This document shows, in pieces, positions 7,443 through 39,128 of a DNA stretch of 64,000 nt (position 1 is the stretch's first letter; each line of letters begins with the position of its first letter). The notes below the pieces were generated by a model. It was not told the origin of the DNA, ran no database searches, and saw only the letters and a program-made list of their open reading frames with translations. Location: assembly GCF_001570585.1 (NCBI RefSeq), contig NZ_BBXF01000011.1, positions 1 through 64,000 on the forward strand. The letters run 5' to 3'. The position numbers and the translations under genes are program-made. Source of the DNA: Herbidospora daliensis. Lineage in GTDB: Bacteria; Actinomycetota; Actinomycetes; Streptosporangiales; Streptosporangiaceae.

Positions 7443-9056
7443 ATGATCCCCTTATGGCGAACAGTCACCACCCTCGTGACCGCTGCCGCCCTCACGGCGA
7501 CGGCGTCGCCGGTCTCGGCGACCACGACGCCTGACCGCCACCACGGCGGCCAGGCGGCCACGGTCCGCACCGACGCCGGCTGGTTGCGCGGCACCACGGC
7601 CGGCGACCACCGGCTCTTCCAGGGCATCCCGTACGCCGCCCCGCCGGTCGGCGAGTCGCGATGGCGGTCGCCGCAGCCGGTCGCGCCGTGGCAGGGCGTG
7701 CGGGCCGCGACGCAGCCGGGCGACCGGTGCGCCCAGCTTCCCGGCATCACGGCCCTGCCGGGCAGCGACAGCGAGGACTGTCTCTACCTCGACGTGGTCG
7801 TGCCGGCCTCCGCTTCGCCCCAGCGGCGCAAGCCGGTCGTGGTCTGGTTGCACGGCGGTGGCCTGATGACCGGGGCGGGCAGCGACAACGACGCCCGCAG
7901 GCTCGCCGTCAGGGGCGACGTGGTCGTGGTGACCGTCAACTACCGGCTGGGCATCCTCGGTTTCTACGGCTATCCCGGCCTGGAGAACAGCGGCGCGTTC
8001 GGCATCGAGGACCAGCAGGCCGCCCTGCGCTGGGTGGCGCGCAACGCCGCCGCCTTCGGGGGCGATCCGCGCAACGTGACGCTCGCGGGGGAGTCGGCCG
8101 GCTCCCACTCGGTCTGCGCGCAGCTCGCCTCGCCTTCGGCCGCCGGGCTCTTCCACCGGGCGATCATGCAGAGCAGCGCCTGCCGGATGGGCGACTTCGC
8201 CGCCGACGGCGTCACCCCGTTCCTGAACGTGCCGTTGTGGATCCCGCGTGAGGCGCACGAGGGCTACGGCCAGGTGATCGCCGCCGCGCTCGGGTGCGCC
8301 GATCCGGCCACCGCCCTGGCCTGCCTGCGCGGCAAGCCGGTCCCTGAGCTGCTCGCCCAGCAGCCGCTGCCGTTCCCGGGTTACGGCACCGCGGTCCTGC
8401 CGGAGGACCCCGCGAAGGTCTTCGCCGAAGGACGGTTCCACCGGGTGCCGGTGATCTCCGGCACCACTCGTGACGAGGGCACGCTGTTCGCCTCGGTGCT
8501 CTTCACCGATCCCTCGCAGGAGGCGTTCGAGGCGGCCGTGCGCAAGAACTTCGGCGATAAGGCCGCCGCCGTGCTGGCGAAGTATCCGCCGAGCGCGCAC
8601 GGTTCGCCGCCGCAGGCCGCGGCGGCCATCATGAGCGACTACGAGTGGACGCGGGTGGCCCGCGACAACAACAAGCTGTTCGCCGAGCACGTGCCCACCT
8701 ACGCGTTCGAGTTCACCGACCGCACCGCGCCGCCGCTCTTCCCCCTGGCCGACGGCGTCCGGCCGCTCGCCTTCCACAGCTCGGAGTTGTCGTACCTGTT
8801 CGACACCTCCTCGCTCACCACCCCGCTGAACAGGCAGCAGCGCCGGCTGAGCGACACCATGATCGATTACTGGACGCGCTTCGCCGCCACCGGCACCCCG
8901 AACGGTCCCGGCCTGCCGCGCTGGCAGCCGGTACGCCCCGGCGACCCCACGCCCTACGTCCAGCGCCTGGACCTAGGTCCCGGCGGCGTCGGCCCCTGGG
9001 ACCAGGCCGCCGCCCACAACCTGGCCTTCTGGGACACGCTGACCGCGAGCTCCTGA
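7443..9056 (+). CDS. Secreted type B carboxylesterase
   Basis: 537 aa with a signal peptide (about 1-26). It has the alpha/beta-hydrolase hallmarks of the carboxylesterase/cholinesterase family: FQGIPYA and EDCLYLDV near the N-terminus, oxyanion hole HGGG, nucleophile Ser218 in GESAG, and likely catalytic His445 in AFHSSELSYLF. Length matches the family. It hydrolyses carboxylic esters outside the cell; the natural substrate is unknown. No clear ribosome site precedes the ATG, and an unusually strong hairpin ends 18 bases upstream. It is convergent with the minus-strand succinate dehydrogenase operon, with a bidirectional terminator between. Confidence 0.92.
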   Translation: MIPLWRTVTTLVTAAALTATASPVSATTTPDRHHGGQAATVRTDAGWLRGTTAGDHRLFQGIPYAAPPVGESRWRSPQPVAPWQGVRAATQPGDRCAQLPGITALPGSDSEDCLYLDVVVPASASPQRRKPVVVWLHGGGLMTGAGSDNDARRLAVRGDVVVVTVNYRLGILGFYGYPGLENSGAFGIEDQQAALRWVARNAAAFGGDPRNVTLAGESAGSHSVCAQLASPSAAGLFHRAIMQSSACRMGDFAADGVTPFLNVPLWIPREAHEGYGQVIAAALGCADPATALACLRGKPVPELLAQQPLPFPGYGTAVLPEDPAKVFAEGRFHRVPVISGTTRDEGTLFASVLFTDPSQEAFEAAVRKNFGDKAAAVLAKYPPSAHGSPPQAAAAIMSDYEWTRVARDNNKLFAEHVPTYAFEFTDRTAPPLFPLADGVRPLAFHSSELSYLFDTSSLTTPLNRQQRRLSDTMIDYWTRFAATGTPNGPGLPRWQPVRPGDPTPYVQRLDLGPGGVGPWDQAAAHNLAFWDTLTASS

Positions 9057-9060
9057 ACAC

Positions 9061-9096
9061 GAAAGAGCCGGGCCGCGGATCCGGCCCGGCTCTTTC
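9061..9096. terminator. Bidirectional terminator
   Basis: A 15-bp perfect stem (GAAAGAGCCGGGCCG and complement) with a 6-base loop carries A-rich and T-rich flanks, so it can act on both strands. It lies between the convergent esterase and sdhB genes. Confidence 0.9.
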
Positions 9097-9105
9097 ATCG
9101 CACGG

Positions 9106-9852
9106 TCAGCGGCGGAAGATCTTGTTCCCCAGCCACACCAGCGGGTCGTACTTGCGGTCGACCACGCGCTCCTTCATCGGGATCAGCGCGTTGTCGGTGA
9201 TCTTGATGTGCTCGGGGCACACCTCCGTACAACACTTGGTGATGTTGCAGTAGCCCAGGCCGTGGTCCTCCTGCGCGGAGTCCTTGCGGTCGGCCACGTC
9301 GTAGGGGTGCATGTCGAGCTCGGCGATCCGCATGAGGAAACGCGGACCCGCGAAGTGGGTCTTGTTCTCCTCGTGGTCGCGGATCACGTGGCACACGTTG
9401 TTGCACATGAAGCACTCGATGCACTTGCGGAACTCCTGCGAGCGTTCCACGTCGATCTGCTGCATGCGGTACTCGCCCGGCTTCACGTCCTTCGGCGGCG
9501 TGAACGACGGGATCTCGCGGGCCTTCTGGTAGTTGTACGACACGTCGGTGACCAGGTCCTTGATGACCGGGAAGGTGCGCATCGGGGTGACCGTGATGGT
9601 CTCGTCCTCGGTGAAGGTCGACATGCGGGTCATGCAGCCCAGGCGCGGCTTGCCGTTGATCTCCATCGAGCACGAGCCGCACTTGCCGGCCTTGCAGTTC
9701 CAGCGCACCGCCAGGTCGGGGGCCTGGGTGGCCTGCAGGCGGTGGATGACGTCGAGGACGACCTCGCCCTCGTTGACCTCGACCGTGAAGTCCTCCAGGC
9801 GGCCTTCCCCGCCCTCGCCGCGCCAGACGCGGAACTTGCCCTTGTAACTCAT
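9106..9852 (-). CDS. sdhB: Succinate dehydrogenase iron-sulfur subunit (Sdh1-type)
   Basis: 248 aa. An N-terminal [2Fe-2S] ferredoxin domain has CKAGKCGSC and a later Cys in LGC. The C-terminal domain has CIECFMCNNVC and CNITKCCTEVCP, which hold the [4Fe-4S] and [3Fe-4S] centres. It passes electrons from the flavoprotein to the membrane subunit. ATG at 9852 overlaps the sdhA stop (ATGA). Operon order is membrane subunit, sdhA, sdhB, the same as the mycobacterial Sdh1 locus (Rv0249c-Rv0247c, from memory). The window has a second, clearly different SdhB at 19653. Confidence 0.95.
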   Translation of the reverse strand: MSYKGKFRVWRGEGGEGRLEDFTVEVNEGEVVLDVIHRLQATQAPDLAVRWNCKAGKCGSCSMEINGKPRLGCMTRMSTFTEDETITVTPMRTFPVIKDLVTDVSYNYQKAREIPSFTPPKDVKPGEYRMQQIDVERSQEFRKCIECFMCNNVCHVIRDHEENKTHFAGPRFLMRIAELDMHPYDVADRKDSAQEDHGLGYCNITKCCTEVCPEHIKITDNALIPMKERVVDRKYDPLVWLGNKIFRR

Positions 9853-28586: not shown

Positions 28587-29009
28587 ATGGGGCCGTACTT
28601 CCGCTTCCGCCGCGCCGTCAACTGGATCAACCTCTCGACCCCGCTGGGCCTGCTGATCGCCCGCATCGGCGGGGCGACCCTGCACAAGGGCGAGCTCGGT
28701 CTCCTCTACGCCCACGGCTACCGCCTGTCGTTCCCGATCGCCGGGGCCTTCACCGTGGGGAACGTCGTCCTCACCAAGCACCCCCACGGCTACCTGAGCG
28801 GCCGCCTCCTCCTGCACGAGTCCCGCCACGCCAGCCAGTACGCCGCCTGCGTCGGCCTGCCGATGCTCCCGCTCTACGTGGTGTCGGTGCTGGTGTCGGT
28901 GCTGACGTGCGGGAACCCGGCGACGTACAACCCGTTCGAGCGCATGGCCAACCTCGACGACGGCGGCTACGAGAGGGTCCCCCCGTGGTGGCGCCGCCGC
29001 CCGCGCTAG
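28587..29009 (+). CDS. Small conserved protein with HExxH motif
   Basis: 140 aa from ATG 28587 (an in-frame GTG at 28581 is an alternative; neither has a clear ribosome site). The centre carries HESRHASQY, a zincin-like HExxH, flanked by LLL and by a hydrophobic stretch (about 95-110). The C-terminus has the acidic/aromatic segment NPFERMANLDDGGY. I do not recognise a named family. It may be a very small membrane-associated metallopeptidase or a structural relic. The stop overlaps that of the convergent MshC-like gene in a shared CTAG. Confidence 0.65.
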   Translation: MGPYFRFRRAVNWINLSTPLGLLIARIGGATLHKGELGLLYAHGYRLSFPIAGAFTVGNVVLTKHPHGYLSGRLLLHESRHASQYAACVGLPMLPLYVVSVLVSVLTCGNPATYNPFERMANLDDGGYERVPPWWRRRPR

Positions 29010-29695
29010 CGGCCGATCTCGATCGAGAGGTCGAGGGCCAGGATGTGGTCGGCGTGCAGGAAGGTCTCGAACTTCGAGCCCGGGGCGACCTCGCCGTCGT
29101 CCTCCAGGTCGCGCAGGATGCGCAGCGCCCCCGGCGTGTCGAGGTCGTCGTCGAACGCCTCGGTCAGGGCGTCGGCGCGGTCCTTGGCGATCGGGAGGCT
29201 CGGCTGTTCGGCCCACTCGGCCACCTTCCGCCGCCAGCGGCCGACCGTGTCGGCGGCCGCGCTCAGGGCGTCGGGGGTGACGACGGCCGCGTCGCGGTAG
29301 CGGTGCTCCATGAGCGCGAGGCGCAGCGCCAGCGGGTCGGCGGGCGTCGGCGCGTCGAGGGTGACCGCGCTCCGGGCGCGGTGCCGGACGACCTCGTCGT
29401 CGACCGGCTCGTCGGTGTCGCCGAGGTAGAGGTCGATCCGGCCGCCCAGGAGGCGCAGCGCGCCCGCCATGCCGTCGGGCACGTGCTCGGCCGGGCGCAC
29501 GTTCAGCGGCGTCAGGTCGCCGTCGAGGCTCCGGCAGGCGAGCACCCGTACGTTCGACCGTTCGAGCACCCGCCTGATCAGGTCGGCGTGGACCTGCCCC
29601 GGCAGGCCGGCGGCGGTGTAGGTGCGCAGCGCGCGTGAGCCGGGGGGCAGGAGCGGCTCCACGAGCCGGTGACGGGTGTCATAGAGCCGCAACAT
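29006..29695 (-). CDS. MshC/CysS-like protein without the catalytic core
   Basis: 229 aa. The N-terminus (LRLYDTRHRLVEPL) and the segment ADPLALRLALMEHRYR match cysteinyl-tRNA synthetase and its mycothiol paralogue MshC; the C-terminal DDLDTPGALRILRDLE matches their anticodon-stem helix region. The middle is collapsed: no HIGH-like motif, no KMSKS and no zinc Cys/His set are visible, and the length is about half of MshC. It cannot activate cysteine in the known way. A binding or regulatory role for a cysteine-linked product, near mshB, is a guess. A TAATGT hexamer lies 7 bases before the ATG. Confidence 0.6.
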   Translation of the reverse strand: MLRLYDTRHRLVEPLLPPGSRALRTYTAAGLPGQVHADLIRRVLERSNVRVLACRSLDGDLTPLNVRPAEHVPDGMAGALRLLGGRIDLYLGDTDEPVDDEVVRHRARSAVTLDAPTPADPLALRLALMEHRYRDAAVVTPDALSAAADTVGRWRRKVAEWAEQPSLPIAKDRADALTEAFDDDLDTPGALRILRDLEDDGEVAPGSKFETFLHADHILALDLSIEIGR

Positions 29696-29705
29696 GCGTC
29701 CGACA

Positions 29706-30668
29706 TTACTTGAGGGTCACCTTCGTCGACCCGACGAGGAAGTTGATGCCGACCGGCTTGGCGCCCCTCGGCCGGGTGGCGAACTTCAGCGTGACGCTGC
29801 GGCCGGGGGCCAGGCTGTTGATCGCGCACTTGACGGTGGTCGCGGTGCGCTTGCACGCCTTCGGCGCATAGGTGAGGCGGTTGTTGCCGAAGGTCTTGCC
29901 CGAGATGTTGATCTTCGTGGCCAGCTTGGCGCCGGTGTTGGAGATCTTCAGCACGTACTGCGACCGGCTCTTGGCGCCCCCCGAGATCAGGATGCGGACC
30001 GGCGGGTCGGCCAGCGCGTGCAACTGCGACAACGTGCCGTTGAACGCGTCGGAGCCGCCGGCGTGGTCGGCCTTCTCGGCCTTCTGCCAGAACGTCCACT
30101 TCTGCCACGCGGCCGGCAGCTCGCCCGGGTCGGCGCCCCAGCGGGCGATCCAGAGCGGGTTCTTGGCGAACTTCTTGGTGTCGCCCGTGCAGGTCTTCCA
30201 CCAGGAGGTCGTCGTGTAGATGATCGCGTCGCGCTTCGTCCACGCCTTGTAGCGGGAGAGCCAGTCGCCGATCCACTTGACCATCGCGGCCTGGTCGAGG
30301 CCGTAGCAGCTGTTCAGGCCGTTGCGGTTGTTGTAGGGGTTGTCCTCGACGTCGAGCACCCCCGGCAGCGTGCGCCCGTCGGCGGTCCAGTTGCCGCCGT
30401 TGCGGACGAAGAAGTCGGCCTGCTCCTTGCCGCTCGATTCGTGCGGCTGGGCGAAGTGGTAGGCGCCCCGGTACATGCCTTCGGTCTGGGCGCCGGAGAA
30501 CTGGGTCCCGAACCGCGGGCTCTTGTAGTTGGGACCTTCGGTGGCGTGCACGAAGACGAACTCCGCGCCCTTGCCCTTGACCTCGGTCCAGTCGACGTCG
30601 CCGGTCCAGTTGCTGACGTCGGCCCCCATGACGGTCGTCGACGCGACCAGTAACAAAGCGGCGTACAT
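29706..30668 (-). CDS. Secreted GH25 muramidase with C-terminal beta domain
   Basis: 320 aa. A short signal peptide (about 1-15) is followed by a GH25 lysozyme domain (about 16-200): GADVSNW at the mouth of the barrel, HATEGPNYKSP, GAYHFAQP and the catalytic LDVEDN. Residues about 205-320 form a CARDB/DUF11-like beta-sandwich with one Cys pair, likely for wall binding. It cleaves the MurNAc-GlcNAc bond of peptidoglycan outside the cell. Start ATG 30668 follows GGAAGG. Role could be wall turnover or killing of rivals. Confidence 0.9.
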   Translation of the reverse strand: MYAALLLVASTTVMGADVSNWTGDVDWTEVKGKGAEFVFVHATEGPNYKSPRFGTQFSGAQTEGMYRGAYHFAQPHESSGKEQADFFVRNGGNWTADGRTLPGVLDVEDNPYNNRNGLNSCYGLDQAAMVKWIGDWLSRYKAWTKRDAIIYTTTSWWKTCTGDTKKFAKNPLWIARWGADPGELPAAWQKWTFWQKAEKADHAGGSDAFNGTLSQLHALADPPVRILISGGAKSRSQYVLKISNTGAKLATKINISGKTFGNNRLTYAPKACKRTATTVKCAINSLAPGRSVTLKFATRPRGAKPVGINFLVGSTKVTLK

Positions 30669-30714
30669 TCATGATCCTTCCCCGTGCGGAGAACGATCGT
30701 CCCACAAACCTTCT

Positions 30715-32544
30715 TTACAGATAGAGAAGAATGTCGCGATCCCCGCGTTCTCTCAGCCTTCCGAGAACGTCGTCCTTGCCCGCGCCGTCGGGCATGCCGA
30801 TGCGGGCGCCGATCAGCCGCAGCCCCTCGGCCTCGGAGGCGACGGGGGCGGTGTACCCGATCAGGTGGAGGGCCTTGTTGAGCGGCGGCAGCCCGGCCGC
30901 GCCCTGCGGCAGGAACCGGGTCAGCAGCTCGCCGCCGTCGGAGACGGTCAGGAAGACGTGGTCGCCCTCGCCGGCGTTGTACTCGGCCAGTATCGGGCGG
31001 ATCGACCCCATGGTCGGCTGGTTGTGCCACGAGATCACCACCTCCCCCTGCGGGGTCGAGGCGGTGAGCTGGCCGCCGGGCGCCATGCCGAGGTGGGCAG
31101 CGAACCCGGTCGGCAGCGGGGAGCCCGAGCCGCGCAGGTGCTCGGCGTTGACGTCGACCCGGTGCCACCAGCGGCCGTCGCGGCTGCGGAAGCAGCGGCG
31201 GGTCATCGACACGTCGCGGCGCGGCTGGTAGTCGGCCGGTTCCGCGCCCGCGACCCTGATCCAGCCGCGCTGGGTGCGCTCGAACCCGGGGCCGCCCGCG
31301 TAGGCGCGCACCGAGCTCTCGCTCACCTCGTAACGCGAGGTCAGCGACGCCACGATCGTGTTGACCGACGCCTCGCCGCCGGCCTTCTCGATCTCGCGGG
31401 CGATCATCTCCCTGATGCCGAGATACTCCTCGCCGCCCCATCGGGCCAGGCCGTACTTGTTCCGGTCGAGCCGCAGGAACCGGTCGTCGGCGGTGAGCTG
31501 ATTGCGGATGCCGACCAGGCTGTAGTCTTCGCCGATCCGGTTCTGGATCTCCTCCGGCGTGAGCGGGGTGCCCGCCACCGCCAAGACGGCCTCGGCCTTG
31601 TCGTTCACGCTCCTCGGCCACGGCACGACGTGGCCTTCGAGCAGCCGCAACTGCGGCACCGCGCCGAGCCAGCGTTCCCCGACGTCCTCACGCACGCCGA
31701 GCTGGGCGACCATGCCGACCGCCTCGGCCAGCGGCACCGGACCGTCGGTGAACAACTGCCGCGTCTTCTCGCGCAGCTCGTCGGCGCCCCCGGCGACCAG
31801 CCAGCCGTCGACCTGGTCGTAGCCGGTCAGTAACGTGCGGACGAACCGCCAGGCCGGGATGCCCAGCGTGGCGAGCTCGGTGCGGTGCCACGGCACCGCC
31901 GCCATCAGGTCGTCGGCCGGGACCGCCGACCCCAGCCGGGTGCGCAACCACGTGAGGTGGGCGGTCAGCGGGGTCGCCTCCTGGCCCCGCAGCCAGTTGT
32001 CGACGTGGTCGCGCAGGTCGCGCTCGATCTGCCGGATGCGCTCGCGGGTGACGGAGAACCGCTGCGCCAGTTCGTCGAGGGTGGCGCGGTGCTCGGCGTA
32101 GAGCCGGTCGCGGGCGATGGCGCGCTGCCGGTCGTCGAGCCGCTGGAACAGTTCGTCGATGATCTCGGGCAGCGGCCGTTCGGGCACCGCGGGCGGCACG
32201 CTGGCCAGCGGGTTGAGCGGCTCGGTGTCCATGAGCCGGTCGAGCACCCCGGCGAACAGCAGCCGGACGCTGTCGCGGCTGCCCGGCGTGCGCTGGCTCT
32301 CGGCGGGTGCGGTGAACCGCAGCAGCGGCATGATGTCGCCGAGGATCAGGTGTCCCCAGCAGGCGGACGTGAGATCGGCCAGTTTGGCCGCGATCTGGGC
32401 CGGCCCGACCGTGGCGCAGGCGCGGTCGATCGGGAGCGCCTGCCACCACGAGTTCGGGAGGCCGGGATCGCTGGCGATCGGCTCCACCTGGCTGGGCGCG
32501 GTCCAGCGCAGGGGGGGCACGATGTCGCTCAGGCTCAAATTCAT
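30715..32544 (-). CDS. Unknown protein with sigma region 4-like HTH and HARE-like domain (paralogue A2)
   Basis: 609 aa, no signal or membrane segment. Four parts: an N-terminal domain (about 1-105, starting NLSLSDIVPPLRW); a sigma-70 region 4-like HTH (about 138-185, with TLDELAQRFSVTRERIRQIE); a winged-helix part resembling HARE-HTH (about 315-430, LTPEEIQNRIG to RGWIRVAG); and a C-terminal domain (about 447-609, GRWWHRVDV to RERGDRDILL). The first and last parts are clearly shared with the protein at 34655. It lies 48 bases after the helicase gene. It probably binds DNA or RNA polymerase; nothing more can be read. Confidence 0.75.
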   Translation of the reverse strand: MNLSLSDIVPPLRWTAPSQVEPIASDPGLPNSWWQALPIDRACATVGPAQIAAKLADLTSACWGHLILGDIMPLLRFTAPAESQRTPGSRDSVRLLFAGVLDRLMDTEPLNPLASVPPAVPERPLPEIIDELFQRLDDRQRAIARDRLYAEHRATLDELAQRFSVTRERIRQIERDLRDHVDNWLRGQEATPLTAHLTWLRTRLGSAVPADDLMAAVPWHRTELATLGIPAWRFVRTLLTGYDQVDGWLVAGGADELREKTRQLFTDGPVPLAEAVGMVAQLGVREDVGERWLGAVPQLRLLEGHVVPWPRSVNDKAEAVLAVAGTPLTPEEIQNRIGEDYSLVGIRNQLTADDRFLRLDRNKYGLARWGGEEYLGIREMIAREIEKAGGEASVNTIVASLTSRYEVSESSVRAYAGGPGFERTQRGWIRVAGAEPADYQPRRDVSMTRRCFRSRDGRWWHRVDVNAEHLRGSGSPLPTGFAAHLGMAPGGQLTASTPQGEVVISWHNQPTMGSIRPILAEYNAGEGDHVFLTVSDGGELLTRFLPQGAAGLPPLNKALHLIGYTAPVASEAEGLRLIGARIGMPDGAGKDDVLGRLRERGDRDILLYL

Positions 32545-32592
32545 GCAGGTCCAACCGGCAAGGGGAATATATCCGCAGTTCAGATTAGGGGA

Positions 32593-34647
32593 TCAGGCGG
32601 GAAGGAAGGGACTCGCGCGACCGGAGTAGGACACGTAGAGCAACTCGTTCGCCCGCGTGCATGCGACATAGAGCAACCCCCGTTCTCGCTGCAGGTCGTG
32701 CGCTCGTGCCATCGGATCTTCGGCGTGGGGCGTGAGCGCGTCGGGCGCCGGGATGATCCCCTCTGCGACACCTATCACGGCCACCCGCCGGAACTCCAGC
32801 CCCTTCATACCGTGCAGCATCGTGACTTTCACCTCGATGCCCGCGTCGCGCAGCGCGGCGCGGGCGGTCCGGACGATCTCGACCGTGCGGGCCGTGACGG
32901 CGATCTCCTCGGGGGCGACGCCGTCGGCCAGCCAGTCGCTGACGTGGGCGACCAGGCCGCTGATCTCGGCGTCGGGGGAGACGTACTCGCGCACCAGCGG
33001 GCGCGGGCCGTGCACGGTGGAGCGGTAGCCGTACATCTCGGCCGCGCCCTCGACCAGGCCGTCGACCGGGCCGCCGCCGCGCAGCCGGACGCCGAACGAC
33101 AGGATCTCGTGCGGCAGCCGGTAGGAGATCTTCAGGTGGAACCGGCGGACCGGGATGCCCATGCCGGCCAGCGCCGCACGGGTGTCGAACATGCGCTGGT
33201 GGGGGTCGCCCACGATGAACATGTCGTTCGGGCCGGGTGGCACCGCGGCCCGAAGCAACCGCCACTGCGCGGGGTGCAGGTCCTGCGCTTCGTCGATCAC
33301 CACGTGTTTGTACGGCTCCCGCCGAGGCGCGTCGCTCTCGAGCACGTCGGTCGTGCGCCCCAGCAGCTCGGCGCCCTCGGAGGCCAGCTGGAGGAGGGTG
33401 CGCCGCCCCGAATCCCGGAGACGGCCCTCGACGTGCTCCACCGCCCGCCACACGCTGGTGCGGATGTCGGAGTTGAGCTGCACGCCCCGGCCCGGCCGTT
33501 CGGCCGCCAGGTACTCCTCCAGCGTGCGCAGGTTCTGGGAGAGGATCACCTGCTCCCACTCGCGCAGCAGGAACGCCGCGCCGAAGCGGCTCCCGGCCGC
33601 CTCCTCCCACAACTTGGTGACGTCGCCGACCAGCGTCGGGGCCTTGCCCTCGTGGGCGGCGACGATGCGGTGGGCCAGCCGGTCGACGTTGGTGACCTCG
33701 ACCCGCTTGCGCACGACCTCGTCGTCGATGATCAGGTCGAGCTTGGCCGACAACTCGTTGGCGAGCACCTGGGAGAAGGTGGTCAGCAGGATCGGCCCGC
33801 TGTTCTCCTTGGCCAGGTAGGCCGCCCGGTGCAGCGAGATCACCGTCTTGCCGGTCCCGGCGCCGCCGGTGACCAGCACGGGCCGTTCGTAGACGGGCCA
33901 GTTGGCGTAGGTGTGCTGCGGCGCGTAGAGGAACGTGCACCAGTGGGGCTTGGTCAGCACCCGGTCGAGCTCGACCCGGTCGGCGGCGAAGGCGGCCTGG
34001 CCGGGAGAGCGGTGCAGCGCGGCCTCGAGGTCGTCGAGGTCGAGGTTCTCCGCGGTGGTGACCCGGCAGCCGTCGAGTTCGCGCCAGGCCTCGGCCAGCG
34101 AGCCGCCGCGGGCGAGGACCGCGAGGGGGGCGTACTGGCTCTCTGGGAGCAGGGGTTCGACGGCGGCCAGGTGGGCGTCGGTGGCCATCATCCGGACCAT
34201 TGGGAGCAGCAGTTCCTGGTCGATGCCGATGTCGATCAGGTCGGTCTCGCAGATGTGGCCGTAGAGGCGCTTGCCCGACCCTTCGGACGACCGGCGGAGG
34301 GCGGGCTCGACGCGGGCCAGGGCCTCGGCGTCCCAGACCTCGATGACGCCGATCGCGGAGTTCACGGTGAAGCGGTGCCGTTGCGCGTAGGTGTAGGCCT
34401 CGGCGTCGGGCAGGACCGTGACGAGCCAGTAGACGTCGCGCTGGCGGACGGCGACCGCCCGGTGCCGGTCGGCCAGGCGTAACGTCGTCACGCGGGGGTC
34501 GCGCGCGTTCCGCACCCGCTCGGGCACGGGTCCGGCGGGCGAGTTGTGCAGGAACCGTCTGACGGACACCACGGCGTCCCGCCGCACCGGGCGGGCCAGT
34601 GCGGCGAGTTCCTGAGTGAAGTCCAGGGAGACGGCGAGGCGGGGCAT
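32593..34647 (-). CDS. UvrD/Rep-type superfamily 1 helicase with N-terminal RelE/ParE-fold domain
   Basis: 684 aa from ATG 34647. Residues 1-100 resemble a RelE/ParE toxin fold (LAVSLDF, then NARDPRVTTLRLADRHRAV, then DVYWLVTVLPDAEAYTYA). The rest is an SF1A helicase: Walker A GGAGTGKT (261-268), motif II IDEAQD (451-456), motif III VGDPHQRMFD (479-488), motif V LHGMKGLEF (611-619) and motif VI YVACTRA (660-666). It is shorter than UvrD, with reduced 1B/2B inserts. It should move on or unwind nucleic acid in the cytoplasm. It sits between two paralogous genes in one operon (7 bases and 48 bases apart), suggesting a three-protein machine. Confidence 0.88.
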   Translation of the reverse strand: MPRLAVSLDFTQELAALARPVRRDAVVSVRRFLHNSPAGPVPERVRNARDPRVTTLRLADRHRAVAVRQRDVYWLVTVLPDAEAYTYAQRHRFTVNSAIGVIEVWDAEALARVEPALRRSSEGSGKRLYGHICETDLIDIGIDQELLLPMVRMMATDAHLAAVEPLLPESQYAPLAVLARGGSLAEAWRELDGCRVTTAENLDLDDLEAALHRSPGQAAFAADRVELDRVLTKPHWCTFLYAPQHTYANWPVYERPVLVTGGAGTGKTVISLHRAAYLAKENSGPILLTTFSQVLANELSAKLDLIIDDEVVRKRVEVTNVDRLAHRIVAAHEGKAPTLVGDVTKLWEEAAGSRFGAAFLLREWEQVILSQNLRTLEEYLAAERPGRGVQLNSDIRTSVWRAVEHVEGRLRDSGRRTLLQLASEGAELLGRTTDVLESDAPRREPYKHVVIDEAQDLHPAQWRLLRAAVPPGPNDMFIVGDPHQRMFDTRAALAGMGIPVRRFHLKISYRLPHEILSFGVRLRGGGPVDGLVEGAAEMYGYRSTVHGPRPLVREYVSPDAEISGLVAHVSDWLADGVAPEEIAVTARTVEIVRTARAALRDAGIEVKVTMLHGMKGLEFRRVAVIGVAEGIIPAPDALTPHAEDPMARAHDLQRERGLLYVACTRANELLYVSYSGRASPFLPA

Positions 34648-34654
34648 GGGGGGC

Positions 34655-36418
34655 CTAACCCAGCAGGGACAGCAGGTCTCTGTCCCCACGTTCTCGGAGG
34701 CGGGCCCGCAGTTCGTCGGGCGGGGTCTGGCCGGTCAGGCCGATGCGCGTGGCGATGACGCGGTCGGCCTGGTCGGAGTTTCCACCGGGGGCCGTGTAGC
34801 CGACCAGGCGCAGCGCCCGCGCGATCGTGTCGCCGGAGTTGGCGGCGGGAAGATGGCGGACCCTGAGCATGCCCTCGTCGGAGAGGGTGAGAAAGATGTG
34901 GCTGCCCTCCTTGGCCGCGACCTCGCTGAGGATGCGGCCGAGCGAGTCGATGGCGGGGGAGTCCCGCCAGGTCATCGTGACGTCTCCGGCGGCGCTGCGC
35001 ACCGTTCTTTCGCCACCCGGCGACAACCCCAGGTAGAGGGCGAAGCCCTCCGGGAGGCCGACCGACGTCCCGGCCAGATGCCCGGCGTCGACGTCGACCC
35101 GCAACCACCAGCGCCCGTCGGGCTGACGGAAGCAGCGCTGGGTCTGCGACACGTCGGCCGGGGCGAGCGGCGGCGGCACGGGGGCGACGGGGGTGACCGG
35201 AGCGGGCGCCGCGCCGTTGGGACTCTGTATCCGCAACTGCGGGACGTTCTCCAGCCACTCCTTGGCGACCTCGGGGTGGATGCCGAGGGAGGAGACGAGT
35301 TCGAGGGCCCGCGACACGGTCGGCGGGCGGTCGGCGTTCACGATCAGGCCGCGGGTGCGTTCGTGCAGCTCGGCCAGGTCGCCCTGGACGACCCAGTCGC
35401 CGGAGACCTGGTAGCCGGGGAGCGTGGCGAGCACGAACTGCCAGGCGAGCACGTCGAGGGAGGGCAGCTCGCGGGTGTGCCACTCGGCCGCGTTGACCAG
35501 CCGCGACTTGGGCGCGGCCACGCCGAGGAGGTCGGTCAGGTTGAGCAGGTAGCCGCGGTAGCGGGCGGCGGGCGGCGAGGCGAGCCACTCCTTGAGCCGG
35601 GCGCGCAGCGCGTTCTCGGTCGAATCGAGGATGCCCGAGGGCACGCCGAGCAGCTTGGAGAGCGACTCGGGCGAGGTCGGGGAGTCGGTGAAGATCCGGT
35701 TCTGCGCGACCATCCAGCTCTGGTCGTCGAGCGAGGCGAAGACCCGGTCGATCACCTCGGGGAAGTCGGGATCGTCGTCCTCACCCGTCAGCCGGGGCTG
35801 CGGCACCACCGGCGCGACCGGCGCGGCCTGTGCGACGGGCGGCGCGGTGGGCGGGTCGTCGGCCTCTTCGGGCTCCGACTCGGCCACTTCGGCGACCGCG
35901 GCCTGCGCCTTGGTCTGGAACGGCGCCCTGAAGGGCGACTTGAGCGCGGCCCGCGTCTCGTAGGGCTCCTCGGCGGGCGCTTCGGGCTCGGGCTCCACCG
36001 GGGCCCTGGACGGCGCCTCGGTCGCCGCCAGCTTCGCCAGCACCGCCGTGTAGAGGGCCGCCAGCAGCGGGCGGGCCTTCACGAACGGCTGCTCGGTCAG
36101 CTCCCGGCCGGTCAGCGCCAGCAGGCCGGGCCACGACCCGGCCCGGTCGAGCGCGATGCCGACCTGGGGGTCGTCGGCGTCGTCGGGGTCGAGCACGTGC
36201 AGGGCGGGCAGCACGTCGCCCACCGCCGCGGCCGGCCACTGGTCCAGGGTCAGATCGGTCAGCAACTCGGCGAGGGCGTCGACCCCGAAGGCGGGCAGCA
36301 CCCGGCCCATGGGGAGCGAACGCCACCAGGCGTCGGGTAATCCGGCGCGGCCGGTCAGGACGGGGGCAGCATCACTCCAGCGCAGCGGTGGCACGAGGTC
36401 ACTCAGGCAGAAGTTCAT
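34655..36418 (-). CDS. Unknown protein, paralogue A1 of the helicase-flanking pair
   Basis: 587 aa; ATG 36418 has GGGGA upstream and matches the paralogue's start. The N-terminal domain (about 1-100, NFCLSDLVPPLRW) and C-terminal domain (426-587, GRWWLRVDV to RERGDRDLLS) match the protein at 30715. Between them lies a long Pro/Ala/Glu-rich linker (about 135-215), then a helical region aligned with the partner's HTH but without the RERIRQIE recognition helix. The HARE-like segment is missing. It is first in the unit, directly before the helicase. It probably forms a complex with the paralogue; the role is unknown. Confidence 0.72.
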   Translation of the reverse strand: MNFCLSDLVPPLRWSDAAPVLTGRAGLPDAWWRSLPMGRVLPAFGVDALAELLTDLTLDQWPAAAVGDVLPALHVLDPDDADDPQVGIALDRAGSWPGLLALTGRELTEQPFVKARPLLAALYTAVLAKLAATEAPSRAPVEPEPEAPAEEPYETRAALKSPFRAPFQTKAQAAVAEVAESEPEEADDPPTAPPVAQAAPVAPVVPQPRLTGEDDDPDFPEVIDRVFASLDDQSWMVAQNRIFTDSPTSPESLSKLLGVPSGILDSTENALRARLKEWLASPPAARYRGYLLNLTDLLGVAAPKSRLVNAAEWHTRELPSLDVLAWQFVLATLPGYQVSGDWVVQGDLAELHERTRGLIVNADRPPTVSRALELVSSLGIHPEVAKEWLENVPQLRIQSPNGAAPAPVTPVAPVPPPLAPADVSQTQRCFRQPDGRWWLRVDVDAGHLAGTSVGLPEGFALYLGLSPGGERTVRSAAGDVTMTWRDSPAIDSLGRILSEVAAKEGSHIFLTLSDEGMLRVRHLPAANSGDTIARALRLVGYTAPGGNSDQADRVIATRIGLTGQTPPDELRARLRERGDRDLLSLLG

Positions 36419-36523
36419 CGCTATCCCCATCACTTCCGTAAGACCAGACCATAGTCTGGCAAATCCCCTGCCGTGGCGGGAGTTTCATCCGTGACGAACA
36501 GCCACAAACGATGGTGTCACCCT

Positions 36524-37300
36524 TCAGTGGCGCACCGCTGCGAAACGCAGTCTCACGTAGTCGGCCATCCAGCCGGAGTCGTTGCGGAGGGCCGGGGCGG
36601 CGAGTTCGTTCACCCGCCGGAGCAGCGGCTCGACCGTCGCCGGGGGCACGCCGTCGAGGAGCGACCCGGCGAACATCCGCACCCAGTCGGCCGCGCCGTT
36701 GGGACACTCGTCGAGCGGGGTCGGCCGGTCGAAGTGCTCCAGGATGCGCAGGGTGAACCCGGCGCGTTCCAAACGGACGGCGTACTCGGCCGGGCTGGGG
36801 AAGAACCAGGGGAGTTCGGGCTCGCGCAGGCCGTGCTCGCGCCAGGCGGTCAGCATGGCCGAGGTGAGGGCGGCGCAGTTGCCGGCCCCGCCGAGCTCGG
36901 CCACGAACCGGCCGCCGGGCCGCAGCGCGTTGCGGACCGAGTCGATGACCGCGTCGGGGTCGCGGCTCATCCAGTGGAGGGCCGCGTTGGAGAAGACCGC
37001 GTCGAAGGGCTGGGCGACGGTGAAGTCGTGGCCGTCGCCGACCGTGAAGTCGAGCCGGGGGAACTGGGCGATGGCCGTCTCGATCATCGCCTGCGAGCCG
37101 TCGATGCCCAGGACGTAGGCCCCGCGGATGGCGATCTCGCCGCTCAGCACGCCCGTGCCGCAGCCGAGGTCGAGCACGCGCTCGCCCGGCTGCGGGTCGA
37201 GCAGCTCCACGAGGGGAGCGCCCTGCGCCGAGACGTAGCCGAACGAGCTGTCGTAGGCGCGAGCGTTCCACCTCATGAGCGTCGGGGTGTCATATCGCAA
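36524..37300 (-). CDS. Class I SAM methyltransferase (trans-aconitate methyltransferase-like)
   Basis: 258 aa with TTG start at 37300, supported by GGAAG 8 bases upstream; ATG at 37276 is the alternative. The Rossmann motif VLDLGCGTG, acidic residue in GIDGSQAMI and the segment FDAVFSNAALHWM place it with Tam-type and related small-molecule methyltransferases, where the NAALHW motif is typical. The substrate is unproven. It lies between the helicase unit and an orphan binding protein on the same strand. Confidence 0.85.
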   Translation of the reverse strand: MRYDTPTLMRWNARAYDSSFGYVSAQGAPLVELLDPQPGERVLDLGCGTGVLSGEIAIRGAYVLGIDGSQAMIETAIAQFPRLDFTVGDGHDFTVAQPFDAVFSNAALHWMSRDPDAVIDSVRNALRPGGRFVAELGGAGNCAALTSAMLTAWREHGLREPELPWFFPSPAEYAVRLERAGFTLRILEHFDRPTPLDECPNGAADWVRMFAGSLLDGVPPATVEPLLRRVNELAAPALRNDSGWMADYVRLRFAAVRH

Positions 37301-37358
37301 GATGGCTCACTTCCACGGTTGTCCGCATAGAGTACGCCAGCCGTGGAATCAGTGTTTT

Positions 37359-38450
37359 TCAGCTCATTTGCTGAGACCAGTGTTTCTGGAGATACACCTT
37401 GGCCTCGTCCTGCTGCGGGATGGTCATGAAGACCGGCGTCCCGTTCGCCTTCGGCAGCTTCCCGGCCGCCTCGTTGTCGAGGGTGCTCTTCATCTGCATG
37501 GCCTCCATCCGCGAGGGCCGCGCGTAGCCCCTGAGCAGGATGTTCTGGCCCTCGTCGGAGAACAGGAACTCGGTCCAGAGCCGGGCCGCCGCCGGGTGGG
37601 GCGCGCTCGCGCTGATCGCCTGCACGTAGGGCGCGGCCAGGATCGAGCCCGCCGGGATCGTCACCTGCCAGTTCGCCGTGTTGGCGGCCGCCCGCGCGGC
37701 GTTCAGGTAGTCCCAGTCGAGCACCGCGGCCGCCTGCTCGGGCGCGGCGGCGACCGCCCCGGCCTTCTTCAGCGCCGCGAACGCCTGCACGCCCTTGCGG
37801 GCGTCGAACTTGGCGCCCTGCCCCGAGGGCTGCATCGAGGCCGCCATCACGCCGTTGAAGCCGCTCGCGTTCTTCAGCGGGTCGCCCGCGAGCGCGACCG
37901 TGGTCCCGGCCGGGCGGCCGTTGGGCTTGAGCAACTCGGCGTACGACGCCGGCGCCTTCATCTTGCGCGGGTCGTAGCCGATCGACATGTAGCCGCCGTA
38001 GCCGGCGTACCAGGCGCCGTTGGCGGCCTTGACCTCGTCGGGGACGTCGGTCCAGCCGGTCACCTGGTAGGGGGCGAACTTGGCGGCGTTGGCCAGGGCC
38101 ACGTCGATGCTGAGGTCGAACACGTCGGGCTTCTGGGCCGTGGCGACGGCGTCGATCTGCTGCTGGCTGTTGGCCGCCGGGTTGAGCGACTCGACCTGGA
38201 TGCCGTACTTGTCGGCGAAGACGTCCATCAGCTCGCCGTGGTTGACCCATTCGCGGGGCACCCCGACGACGGTGAGCTTGCCCTCCTTCTGGGCGGACTC
38301 GACCAGCCGGTCGAAGTTGCCGAAGCCCGCCTGGAGGCTGGCGCCCTTCACGTTGACCGGCGGGAGGGCCTTGGTCTCGCCGCCCTGGGACGAACAGGCC
38401 GCCAGGGCCAGCAGGGCCGCCAGCGCGGGAGTGGTCACGAGTCTGGTCAC
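37359..38450 (-). CDS. Extracellular solute-binding lipoprotein (orphan)
   Basis: 363 aa from GTG 38450. The signal sequence ends in a lipobox (LALAAC), so it is lipid-anchored outside. The rest is a two-lobed binding protein of family 1 (iron/polyamine/phosphonate-like), with KEGKLTVVGVPREWVNH near the first lobe and LWTEFLFSDEGQNILLRGYARPSR near the end, as in Fe(III)- or aminoethylphosphonate-type receptors. No permease or ATPase gene is near, so its transporter is elsewhere. Start is uncertain because no ribosome site is clear. Confidence 0.85.
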   Translation of the reverse strand: MTRLVTTPALAALLALAACSSQGGETKALPPVNVKGASLQAGFGNFDRLVESAQKEGKLTVVGVPREWVNHGELMDVFADKYGIQVESLNPAANSQQQIDAVATAQKPDVFDLSIDVALANAAKFAPYQVTGWTDVPDEVKAANGAWYAGYGGYMSIGYDPRKMKAPASYAELLKPNGRPAGTTVALAGDPLKNASGFNGVMAASMQPSGQGAKFDARKGVQAFAALKKAGAVAAAPEQAAAVLDWDYLNAARAAANTANWQVTIPAGSILAAPYVQAISASAPHPAAARLWTEFLFSDEGQNILLRGYARPSRMEAMQMKSTLDNEAAGKLPKANGTPVFMTIPQQDEAKVYLQKHWSQQMS

Positions 38451-38497
38451 GGATCGAATGCTTGGGGCCGGGTCGCGCCGGGTCGAGACGGCACGCC

Positions 38498-38704
38498 TCA
38501 GCCTGGGACGACCTTTGCCGCCGCCATGACCTTTTCTGGGAACTCCACGAGCGTGCCGTCGCGCTTGCGCACCGCGAGCACGCCGTCCTCCCACGATTCG
38601 AGCACGCCCACGACGTCGCGGAAGCCCTCGGGCAGGGCCCTTCTGACGGTGACCCGCCTGCCGACGTCGGCCGGCGTGATGGTCACCTTGAGCTGGAAGG
38701 CCAT
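38498..38704 (-). CDS. Small SH3-like domain protein
   Basis: 68 aa; ATG 38704 follows GGAGG. The pattern ITPADVGRRVTVRRAL, GVLESWEDGVLAVRKRDG and VEFPEKVMAAAKVVP looks like the N-terminal SH3-like barrel of Rv0428c-type GNAT acetyltransferases, here as a separate protein without the acetyltransferase part. It is divergent from the ferredoxin gene. The role is unknown; the reading as an isolated domain is moderate. Confidence 0.6.
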   Translation of the reverse strand: MAFQLKVTITPADVGRRVTVRRALPEGFRDVVGVLESWEDGVLAVRKRDGTLVEFPEKVMAAAKVVPG

Positions 38705-38801
38705 GACATTGGCCCCTCCTGTTCCGGCCACCTGACAGTCACCGCAATACTAGGACGGAGCAACCTGCGGCCCATGTCGTGCCGGAAAGAAGGAGCTAGA
38801 G

Positions 38802-39128
38802 GTGACCTACGTCATCGCGCAGCCTTGCGTGGATGTTCTGGACAAGGCGTGCATCGAAGAGTGCCCTGTCGACTGCATCTACGAGGGCGAGCGCATGCTC
38901 TACATCCACCCCGACGAGTGCGTCGACTGTGGGGCGTGCGAGCCGGTCTGCCCGGTGGAGGCCATCTTCTACGAAGACGACCTGCCCGAGCAGTGGAAGG
39001 ACTTCTACAAGGCCAATGTTGACTTCTTCGAGGACCTGGGCTCGCCCGGCGGCGCCTCGAAGGTTGGCAAGATCGAGAAGGACCATCCGATCGTGGCCGC
39101 ACTGCCGCCGCAGGCGGAAGACCACTGA
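38802..39128 (+). CDS. fdxA: 7Fe ferredoxin
   Basis: 108 aa, GTG start 7 bases after AAGGAG. Cys pattern [17 protein letters not shown] gives the [3Fe-4S] side and [12 protein letters not shown] the [4Fe-4S] centre, typical of the actinobacterial FdxA/FdxC type. It is a soluble low-potential electron carrier. It is followed by dapC, 24 bases downstream; the pairing is conserved in actinobacteria (M. tuberculosis fdxC-Rv1178, from memory), though no functional link is established. Confidence 0.95.

Follow-up and report, generated by a model that had tools for sequence, protein, structure and literature searches.

A helicase gene between two paralogues, one with a sigma region 4: a conserved operon of Streptosporangiaceae and its possible origin in a defence-type module

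We analyzed a stretch of 64,000 nucleotides from Herbidospora daliensis (contig NZ_BBXF01000011.1, positions 1 to 64,000 of the forward strand; hereafter the window) and describe here a unit of three genes in which a superfamily 1 (SF1) helicase gene lies between the genes of two paralogous proteins, which we call P3 and P1. Judged by sequence comparison, the unit has a fixed place and gene order, P1 is under purifying selection, P1 and P3 form separate clades, and the unit possesses conserved non-coding elements of its own. A plausible reading, to which we give slightly less than even weight, is that a defence-type module has settled as a core operon of the Streptosporangiaceae in the narrow sense, with P1 reading DNA and the helicase serving as the motor. 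The unit consists of the following features.

34655-36418, minus strand: P3, the first gene; 587 amino acids (aa) counted from ATG; degenerate sigma region 4-like region, linker and shared C-terminal domain.
32593-34647, minus strand: SF1 (UvrD-type) helicase; 684 aa from ATG; N-terminal ~115 aa RelE/ParE-like (fold suggestive only).
34303-34647, minus strand: N-terminal domain of the helicase, RelE/ParE-like by a suggestive profile comparison.
30715-32544, minus strand: P1, the third gene; 609 aa; sigma region 4, weak HARE-type helix-turn-helix (HTH) and a C-terminal domain without a Pfam family.
32017-32148, minus strand: sigma-70 region 4 of P1 (residues 133-176) with the recognition helix VTRERIRQIE.
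31438-31611, minus strand: HARE-HTH-like stretch of P1 (residues 312-369), under the Pfam cut-off (20.5 vs 25.9 bits).
30718-31215, minus strand: C-terminal domain common to P1, P3 and distant relatives; its pattern prompts the guess of a B3-like fold.
36445-36463, minus strand: element A, TTTGCCAGACTATGGTCTG, upstream of P3.
32545-32592, minus strand: element B, the 48-bp gap between helicase and P1, holding the two conserved stretches TGAACTGCGGATA and TGCCGGTTGGAC (blocks).

The original prediction had placed the three genes at these coordinates on a common strand, 7 and 48 bases apart, and all of this was borne out, the strand being minus and the order P3, helicase, P1. The reading frames of all three genes are backed by the guanine-plus-cytosine (GC) content at codon positions, which, together with the coordinates, rules out a chance or wrong-frame gene call; for the helicase, an upstream GTG is an alternative start that would give 698 aa. 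The predicted SF1 helicase was confirmed (Pfam UvrD helicase, 5e-21), and so was the sigma region 4-like HTH claimed for one of the paralogues, which is P1 (Pfam E 1.1e-8, over its cut-off).

Loci were sampled by P1, as the best 80 of the 122 stretches of the genome collection that encode a P1 relative (75-100% identical); their genes were called by a simple GC-position method that left some frames wrong. Genome-level counts were read from printed tables, and genus labels ending in '-type' are guesses. The three genes are adjacent and on one strand in 78/80 loci by script, and one more (L095), which failed a cut-off only, is intact. The resulting 79/80 include three loci with P3 truncated at a contig end (L033, L077, L099). 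The sole exception is L076 (taken as genome G124), where P1 is intact, P3 is gone and the helicase is reduced to a short remnant with a residual 77% match to it. Because this lineage kept P1 intact without P3 and helicase, the comparison points to a separate role for P1. The gene fdxA lies inside the fetched stretch in 77/80 loci and mshB in 59/80; the two loci with neither are contigs of 8-10 kb. Conservation at the same locus in all relatives, with no link to mobile or defence genes, had been named beforehand as speaking against a defence or conflict system, and this is largely what was found, the place being kept across genera with fdxA or mshB in 78/80 loci.

To one side of the unit lies mshB, to the other fdxA/dapC. 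The distance from mshB to dapC, checked in 12 genomes, amounts to 12.5 kb in the unit-bearing G204, and in genomes without a full P1 it is ~4 kb (G029 and G008), 7 kb (G084), 13.5 kb (G097), 18 kb (G031), 26 kb (G055) or 50 kb (G085). In G217 mshB and dapC lie 4 kb apart in a different orientation, and in G143 they are on separate contigs. G097 has the same flanking genes without the unit, including the methyltransferase that in the window lies directly upstream of P3, and at the site in G206 a P3-like gene stands without P1 or the helicase. Because the interval differs among relatives without the unit, the site is variable in deep time; by this comparison, the unit entered or was lost there in deep time and is fixed in the genera carrying it. 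The earlier impression that the unit 'looks inserted' therefore stands for deep time, but not within the family, where place and order are fixed; a recent horizontal insertion is rejected for the family on the ground of this conserved place and order.

The three proteins differ in conservation. Taking the best segment against the window protein in non-Herbidospora loci, median identity is 79% for P1 (n=74), 64% for the helicase (n=74) and 58% for P3 (n=74), whose segments cover a median of 63% and whose L076 value is a match to P1 itself. Among the neighbours the medians are 80% for dapC (n=70), 95% for fdxA (n=71), 59% for mshB (n=53) and 81% for the upstream methyltransferase, which is present in 71/74 of these loci. 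The ratio of nonsynonymous to synonymous substitution rates (dN/dS), from two comparisons within Herbidospora, is 0.03 and 0.05 for P1, 0.08 and 0.09 for dapC, 0.12 in both for the helicase, and 0.23 and 0.24 for P3. By these ratios selection on P1 is strongly purifying and of the housekeeping kind, and P1 is the most constrained of the three. A full P1 is present in 113/249 genomes of the order (in one split over two contigs), and six genomes of Nocardiopsis type carry a P1-like gene that is more distant (1e-111 to 1e-130); the remaining genomes of this search gave some P3-like matches and many matches that are sigma-factor-like only. At 1e-20, 182 of the same 249 genomes match the P3 profile and 221 match the helicase, both counts mixing orthologues and paralogues.

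The domain content of P1 is that of a putative DNA reader. Over a 66-aa stretch its best match in the Protein Data Bank (PDB) set is SigA (8.7e-6 for the whole chain; i-Evalue 0.0046 for the region 4 stretch alone), and P1 and SigA share the helix VTRERIRQIE residue for residue. Because sigma region 2 has no Pfam match in P1, P1 is, by its domains, no complete sigma factor. We infer that P1 binds DNA through the sigma region 4 helix, the HARE-type HTH and the C-terminal domain. The functions of the sigma region 4, HARE, PcrA and HelD families, on which this and the following paragraphs draw, are general knowledge.

The homology predicted for the two flanking genes is real: P1 and P3 align in three colinear blocks (48% over 166 aa, 6e-45; 33% over 204 aa; 39% over 83 aa). 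For P3, a Pfam search at E up to 1 gave no match, and a search of the PDB set at E up to 10 with the stretch equivalent to region 4 returned no sigma factor; at the level of its sequence, P3 has lost the recognition helix. Where P1 has the HARE/second HTH stretch, the middle of P3 is a variable low-complexity linker. In a midpoint-rooted tree of 41 chosen family members, the P1 and P3 clades are each single (supports 100/100 and 100/99) and both span the genera sampled; support is good for 27/38 inner branches, four rows sit on long branches (two of which meet), and seven rows have an unusual make-up. The nearest relatives of P3 in this tree are a Nocardiopsis-type copy near suf genes (by eye) and an extra Microbispora-type copy. 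Three Nocardiopsis-type loci (L169, L172, L173) have a P3-like protein without a helicase, adjoining suf Fe-S genes by eye, that groups with P3. An alignment of the C-terminal domain spans P1, P3 and the distant relatives; RGSG and GD..FL-like patterns appear in many, though not all, of its 21 rows, and Pfam recognises the domain in neither P1 nor P3. A solved relative was sought for it and rejected as not convincing (best E 0.23 in the PDB set); that the domain is a B3-like barrel is our guess from its sequence pattern.

The helicase matches the PDB profiles of UvrD1, PcrA, Rep and HelD, and contains the blocks GGAGTGKT, DEAQD, GDPHQR, HGMKGLEF and ACTRA, which we take to be SF1 motifs. These blocks are mostly preserved in 16 aligned rows, with changes in the Nonomuraea rows. 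About 70 residues preceding DEAQD are absent in 5/16 rows, four from Nonomuraea and one from Thermoactinospora (L064, L065, L073, L089, L096). At the N-terminus of the window protein, for which a RelE/ParE-like fold had been claimed, Pfam recognises nothing and the PDB profile search gave nothing of note, whereas hhalign against 15 ParE-family stretches gave a probability of 9.6% and a P-value of 0.0033 over 53 columns, better than three controls (0.12, 0.37 and 0.44). In the relative of the helicase on an E. coli plasmid, the N-terminus matches Pfam ParE_like at E 0.084. The claim thus survives as a suggestion only.

The two non-coding elements precede P3 and P1, respectively. The blocks of element B are nearly invariant in 23 aligned sequences and visible across the list of all 80 loci, being spaced further apart in six Sphaerisporangium-type loci; block 1 (CTGAACTGCGGAT) occurs anywhere in the locus exactly in 68/80 and with at most one mismatch in 77/80. 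The 75 bases upstream of P1, of which ~27 are helicase coding sequence in the window, have a median score of 45 against the window, compared with 28 for fdxA and 7 for shuffles. Element A has the consensus TTTG(C/T)C(A/G)GACTATGG(A/T)CTG and is found with at most three mismatches in 75/80 loci, in 64 of them exactly; the five misses are three contigs beginning within P3, one genome without P3, and L063. In its own genome, element A has one match at up to three mismatches, and a 14-base piece of element B has one exact site and two one-mismatch sites. By their position and conservation, A and B are candidate operators or promoters, and that P1 binds to them is a guess.

Several other explanations of the elements were tried and rejected. 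A regulon is not indicated, as no second A site was found at up to three mismatches and the one-mismatch B sites are taken as chance on a rough estimate. A search of Rfam RNA families over 30000-39000 gave none at E up to 1, and a predicted RNA structure of element B was dropped, with nine predicted pairs and zero in which both sides had changed. An RNA hairpin or perfect palindrome does not account for element A: all six pairs form in 24/75 loci and a perfect inverted repeat is present in 17/75, and therefore it is the sequence, not the pairing, that is conserved. The idea that loss of the helicase causes decay of element B was also given up, since the element is altered in the sister genome G204 too, where the unit is intact.

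Relatives of the unit's proteins occur elsewhere, often in mobile, defence-type settings. With three candidates scored in each genome, a P1-like protein at 1e-26 or better was found in 11/353 genomes from other families of the class; the 353 are those outside the family among 394 genomes searched, and all 11 neighbourhoods were gene-called. P1 relatives adjoin PbeA, PbeC, SspA/DndA and DndB genes. In three loci (L156, L157, L161) the P1-like gene adjoins PbeA- and PbeC-type genes, as assigned by PADLOC for six L156 neighbours and one L161 gene and by similarity for the others. The gene next to the P1-like gene is GmrSD in L158; in L166 a 2064-aa protein one gene further has DrmD as its best PADLOC match (5.4e-13), and in L168 the P1-like part is adjoined by helicase, GIY-YIG and exonuclease genes. 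Two of these loci have P1-like proteins of unusual build. In L156 (6587-10480) a 1297-aa P1-like protein with an RNA polymerase alpha C-terminal domain (CTD) and sigma region 4 lies directly upstream of the PbeA gene. In L168 the parts of P1 are in two frames, an Exonuclease-BRCT-HHH protein with sigma region 4 at its end (7633-9768) and a HARE-HTH protein matching the later part of P1 (9913-10866).

On plasmids, P1 was matched in 17/72,556 records, including a Nonomuraea record of 11.85 Mb, and in phages in 0/50,697 records. Relatives of the helicase are present in 82/72,556 plasmid records, in 37 with a coverage of at least 80%. In the two plasmid cases inspected (E. coli and Tsukamurella), the helicase relative lies beside a methyltransferase and a DruE-like helicase, and in a second Herbidospora genome (L155) it lies near a DrmMI-like methyltransferase and a McrB-like AAA protein. 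A repeated trio in Actinomadura-type loci (L194, L195, L197) consists of a helicase relative (46%, blastp), a serine/threonine kinase and a DNA methylase by eye. P1/P3-like proteins without an adjoining helicase occur in Nocardiopsis-type genomes and, more distantly, in other families of the class. Homologues lying mostly without the helicase had also been named beforehand as speaking against the prediction, and this applies in part: the paralogues flank the helicase in 79/80 loci, but these proteins elsewhere do not, nor does the lone P1 of L076/G124.

We compared the unit with known systems. The Pbe-linked P1-like genes (L156, L157, L161) have the same sigma region 4, middle region and C-terminal domain as P1, at 30-34% identity, and like P1 they have a helicase-type gene nearby, PbeA, a superfamily 2 (SF2) protein with a PLD match under the Pfam cut-off. 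They differ in this SF2 partner, in the absence of P3, in an N-terminal extension (RpoA-CTD in L156) and in their sporadic distribution. The helicase relatives in L155, L176 and L177 are 30-41% identical over 93-100% of the length, but no P1 or P3 was seen adjoining them, and their partners are modification and ATPase genes; the two plasmid relatives differ in their mobile setting, with an integrase and insertion sequences. P1 matches MzaA of the MZA system (NF041931) in its sigma region 4 part only, at 36.7 bits against a cut-off of 800, which places it outside MZA. Likewise, P1 has region 4 in common with sigma-70 factors, its recognition helix being identical to SigA's, but, with no match to region 2, it is not a complete member of them. 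The helicase has the SF1 core in common with PcrA/UvrD and HelD/HelR and carries an extra N-terminal domain; its matches to the PcrA and HelD/HelR models are under cut-off (HelR 55.3 bits, cut-off 750; HelD 50.9 bits, cut-off 419), and it is no HelD/HelR by these scores.

GajB models match the helicase as a UvrD type (up to 2.3e-26, PADLOC), but P1 and P3, the genes flanking it, have no GajA match in PADLOC, and the unit is not Gabija. No Pbe, Ssp or Dnd modification gene was found among the immediate neighbours by Pfam, and none of the PADLOC models for such genes matches P1 or P3; for the helicase, the PADLOC result on these systems concerns the best 25 of 45 families. DISARM or Druantia partners were absent from the window stretches scanned with PADLOC, few of which are true frames. 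No published description of the unit was found in the open-access literature searched; the main text of PMC11980606 has 'helicase' and 'UvrD' 0 times (see also parts of PMC10853773, PMC12839542 and PMC3710099).

How might such a unit work? P1 would read a -35-like or otherwise marked DNA site, and P3 would be a non-reading partner with a flexible linker that tethers the helicase. The helicase could then translocate from the P1 site and clear or remodel RNA polymerase, an R-loop or a protein block, and P1 probably also regulates its own operon at A and B. In its fullest form, in which the sigma-like reader P1 and its non-reading twin P3 direct a RelE-headed SF1 motor to chromosomal sites, its own operon included, as a core genome-maintenance or transcription-clearing machine fixed from a phosphorothioate- or restriction-type defence module, this picture is quite improbable as a whole.

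Several observations weigh against a defence-type module that became a core operon with a DNA-reading P1. The direction from defence to core is read from distribution, with a tree rooted at its midpoint, and in five of the 11 neighbourhoods of P1-like genes (L159, L160, L164, L165, L167) no defence gene was noticed, few proteins having been scanned. The 80 loci were picked via P1 and give no measure of how often P3 or the helicase occurs without it. When the comparison is with L027, from a more distant genus, dN/dS rises to 0.14 for P1, 0.25 for the helicase and 0.40 for P3. The HARE-HTH match of P1 stays below its cut-off, and the RelE/ParE likeness of the N-terminal 115 residues of the helicase is suggestive only. 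The 75 bases upstream of P3 have a median score of 10 against 7 for shuffles (quartiles 7-35), which is low because the distance of element A varies. What A and B share is confined to a short core, CATAGTCTG, which stands upstream of P1 in 28/80 loci, and no consensus promoter was found at either. That P1 outlived the helicase would also be expected if one operon combined two unrelated functions.

In another view, P1 is an independent DNA-binding regulator, with P3 and the helicase a separate two-gene unit that is co-transcribed with it by happenstance. P1 alone in L076/G124, a P3-like gene alone in G206 and the strongly conserved element B upstream of P1 all agree with it, but P1 and P3 are paralogues with three common blocks and order and spacing are kept in 79/80 loci, and we regard it as very unlikely. 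The original prediction of a defence or conflict system fares differently in its two halves: relatives do adjoin defence-type genes, but the fixed place and the housekeeping-type selection on P1 are not what it implies. A version of it, in which the unit is an active immune system kept as a core locus, P1 and P3 sensing foreign or unmodified DNA while the helicase degrades or blocks it and the RelE-like domain acts as a toxin, seems unlikely to us. It would explain the helicase relatives beside methyltransferases and DruE- or McrB-like ATPases, the P1 relatives beside Pbe and GmrSD genes, and the sporadic P1-like genes in 11/353 genomes and 17/72,556 plasmid records. It sits poorly with a dN/dS of P1 under that of dapC, the same place in 79/80 loci, immediate neighbours in which Pfam finds no DNA modification or nuclease family, a P1 that outlives helicase loss, and the absence of P1 from the 50,697 phage records. 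Purely cellular origin is likewise of low probability in our estimate: here a housekeeping transcription-coupled helicase module would do PcrA/HelD-like work on RNA polymerase, and defence systems would have captured its relatives later. The sigma region 4 match to SigA, the sub-cut-off matches of the helicase to the PcrA and HelD/HelR models and the strong constraint speak for it; HelR and HelD scores far under their cut-offs, and several genera of the same GTDB family without P1 (full P1 in 113/249 genomes of the order), speak against it.

The unit shows families from sporadic, often defence-type settings as a vertically kept core operon, with P1 among the most constrained genes of the neighbourhood, and turns the route from immune module to housekeeping gene into a testable question. 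The two conserved non-coding elements preceding P3 and P1 are new and offer concrete DNA targets for a binding study, and the C-terminal domain that P1, P3 and distant relatives have in common is one that Pfam detects in neither protein of the unit, P1 or P3.

The neighbours had been proposed for scoring against lists of defence genes. In PADLOC 0/6 stretches matched, but four of the six are wrong frames; the corrected immediate neighbours, scanned with Pfam, are a GH25 gene, a gene for a 229-aa protein without a family, an S-adenosylmethionine (SAM) methyltransferase and a solute-binding protein, with no DNA modification or nuclease family among them.

36524-37300, minus strand: SAM-dependent methyltransferase, on the same strand directly upstream of P3; a neighbour with general SAM-methyltransferase Pfam families.

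On the other side, the GH25 muramidase gene (29706-30668, minus strand) occurs in only 4/74 non-Herbidospora loci. The small gene downstream of the unit at 29006-29695 (minus strand) has a DALR_2 match only, under cut-off, and resembles, on inspection by eye, the start of cysteinyl-tRNA synthetase/MshC in shortened form; it is matched in 71/74 non-Herbidospora loci.

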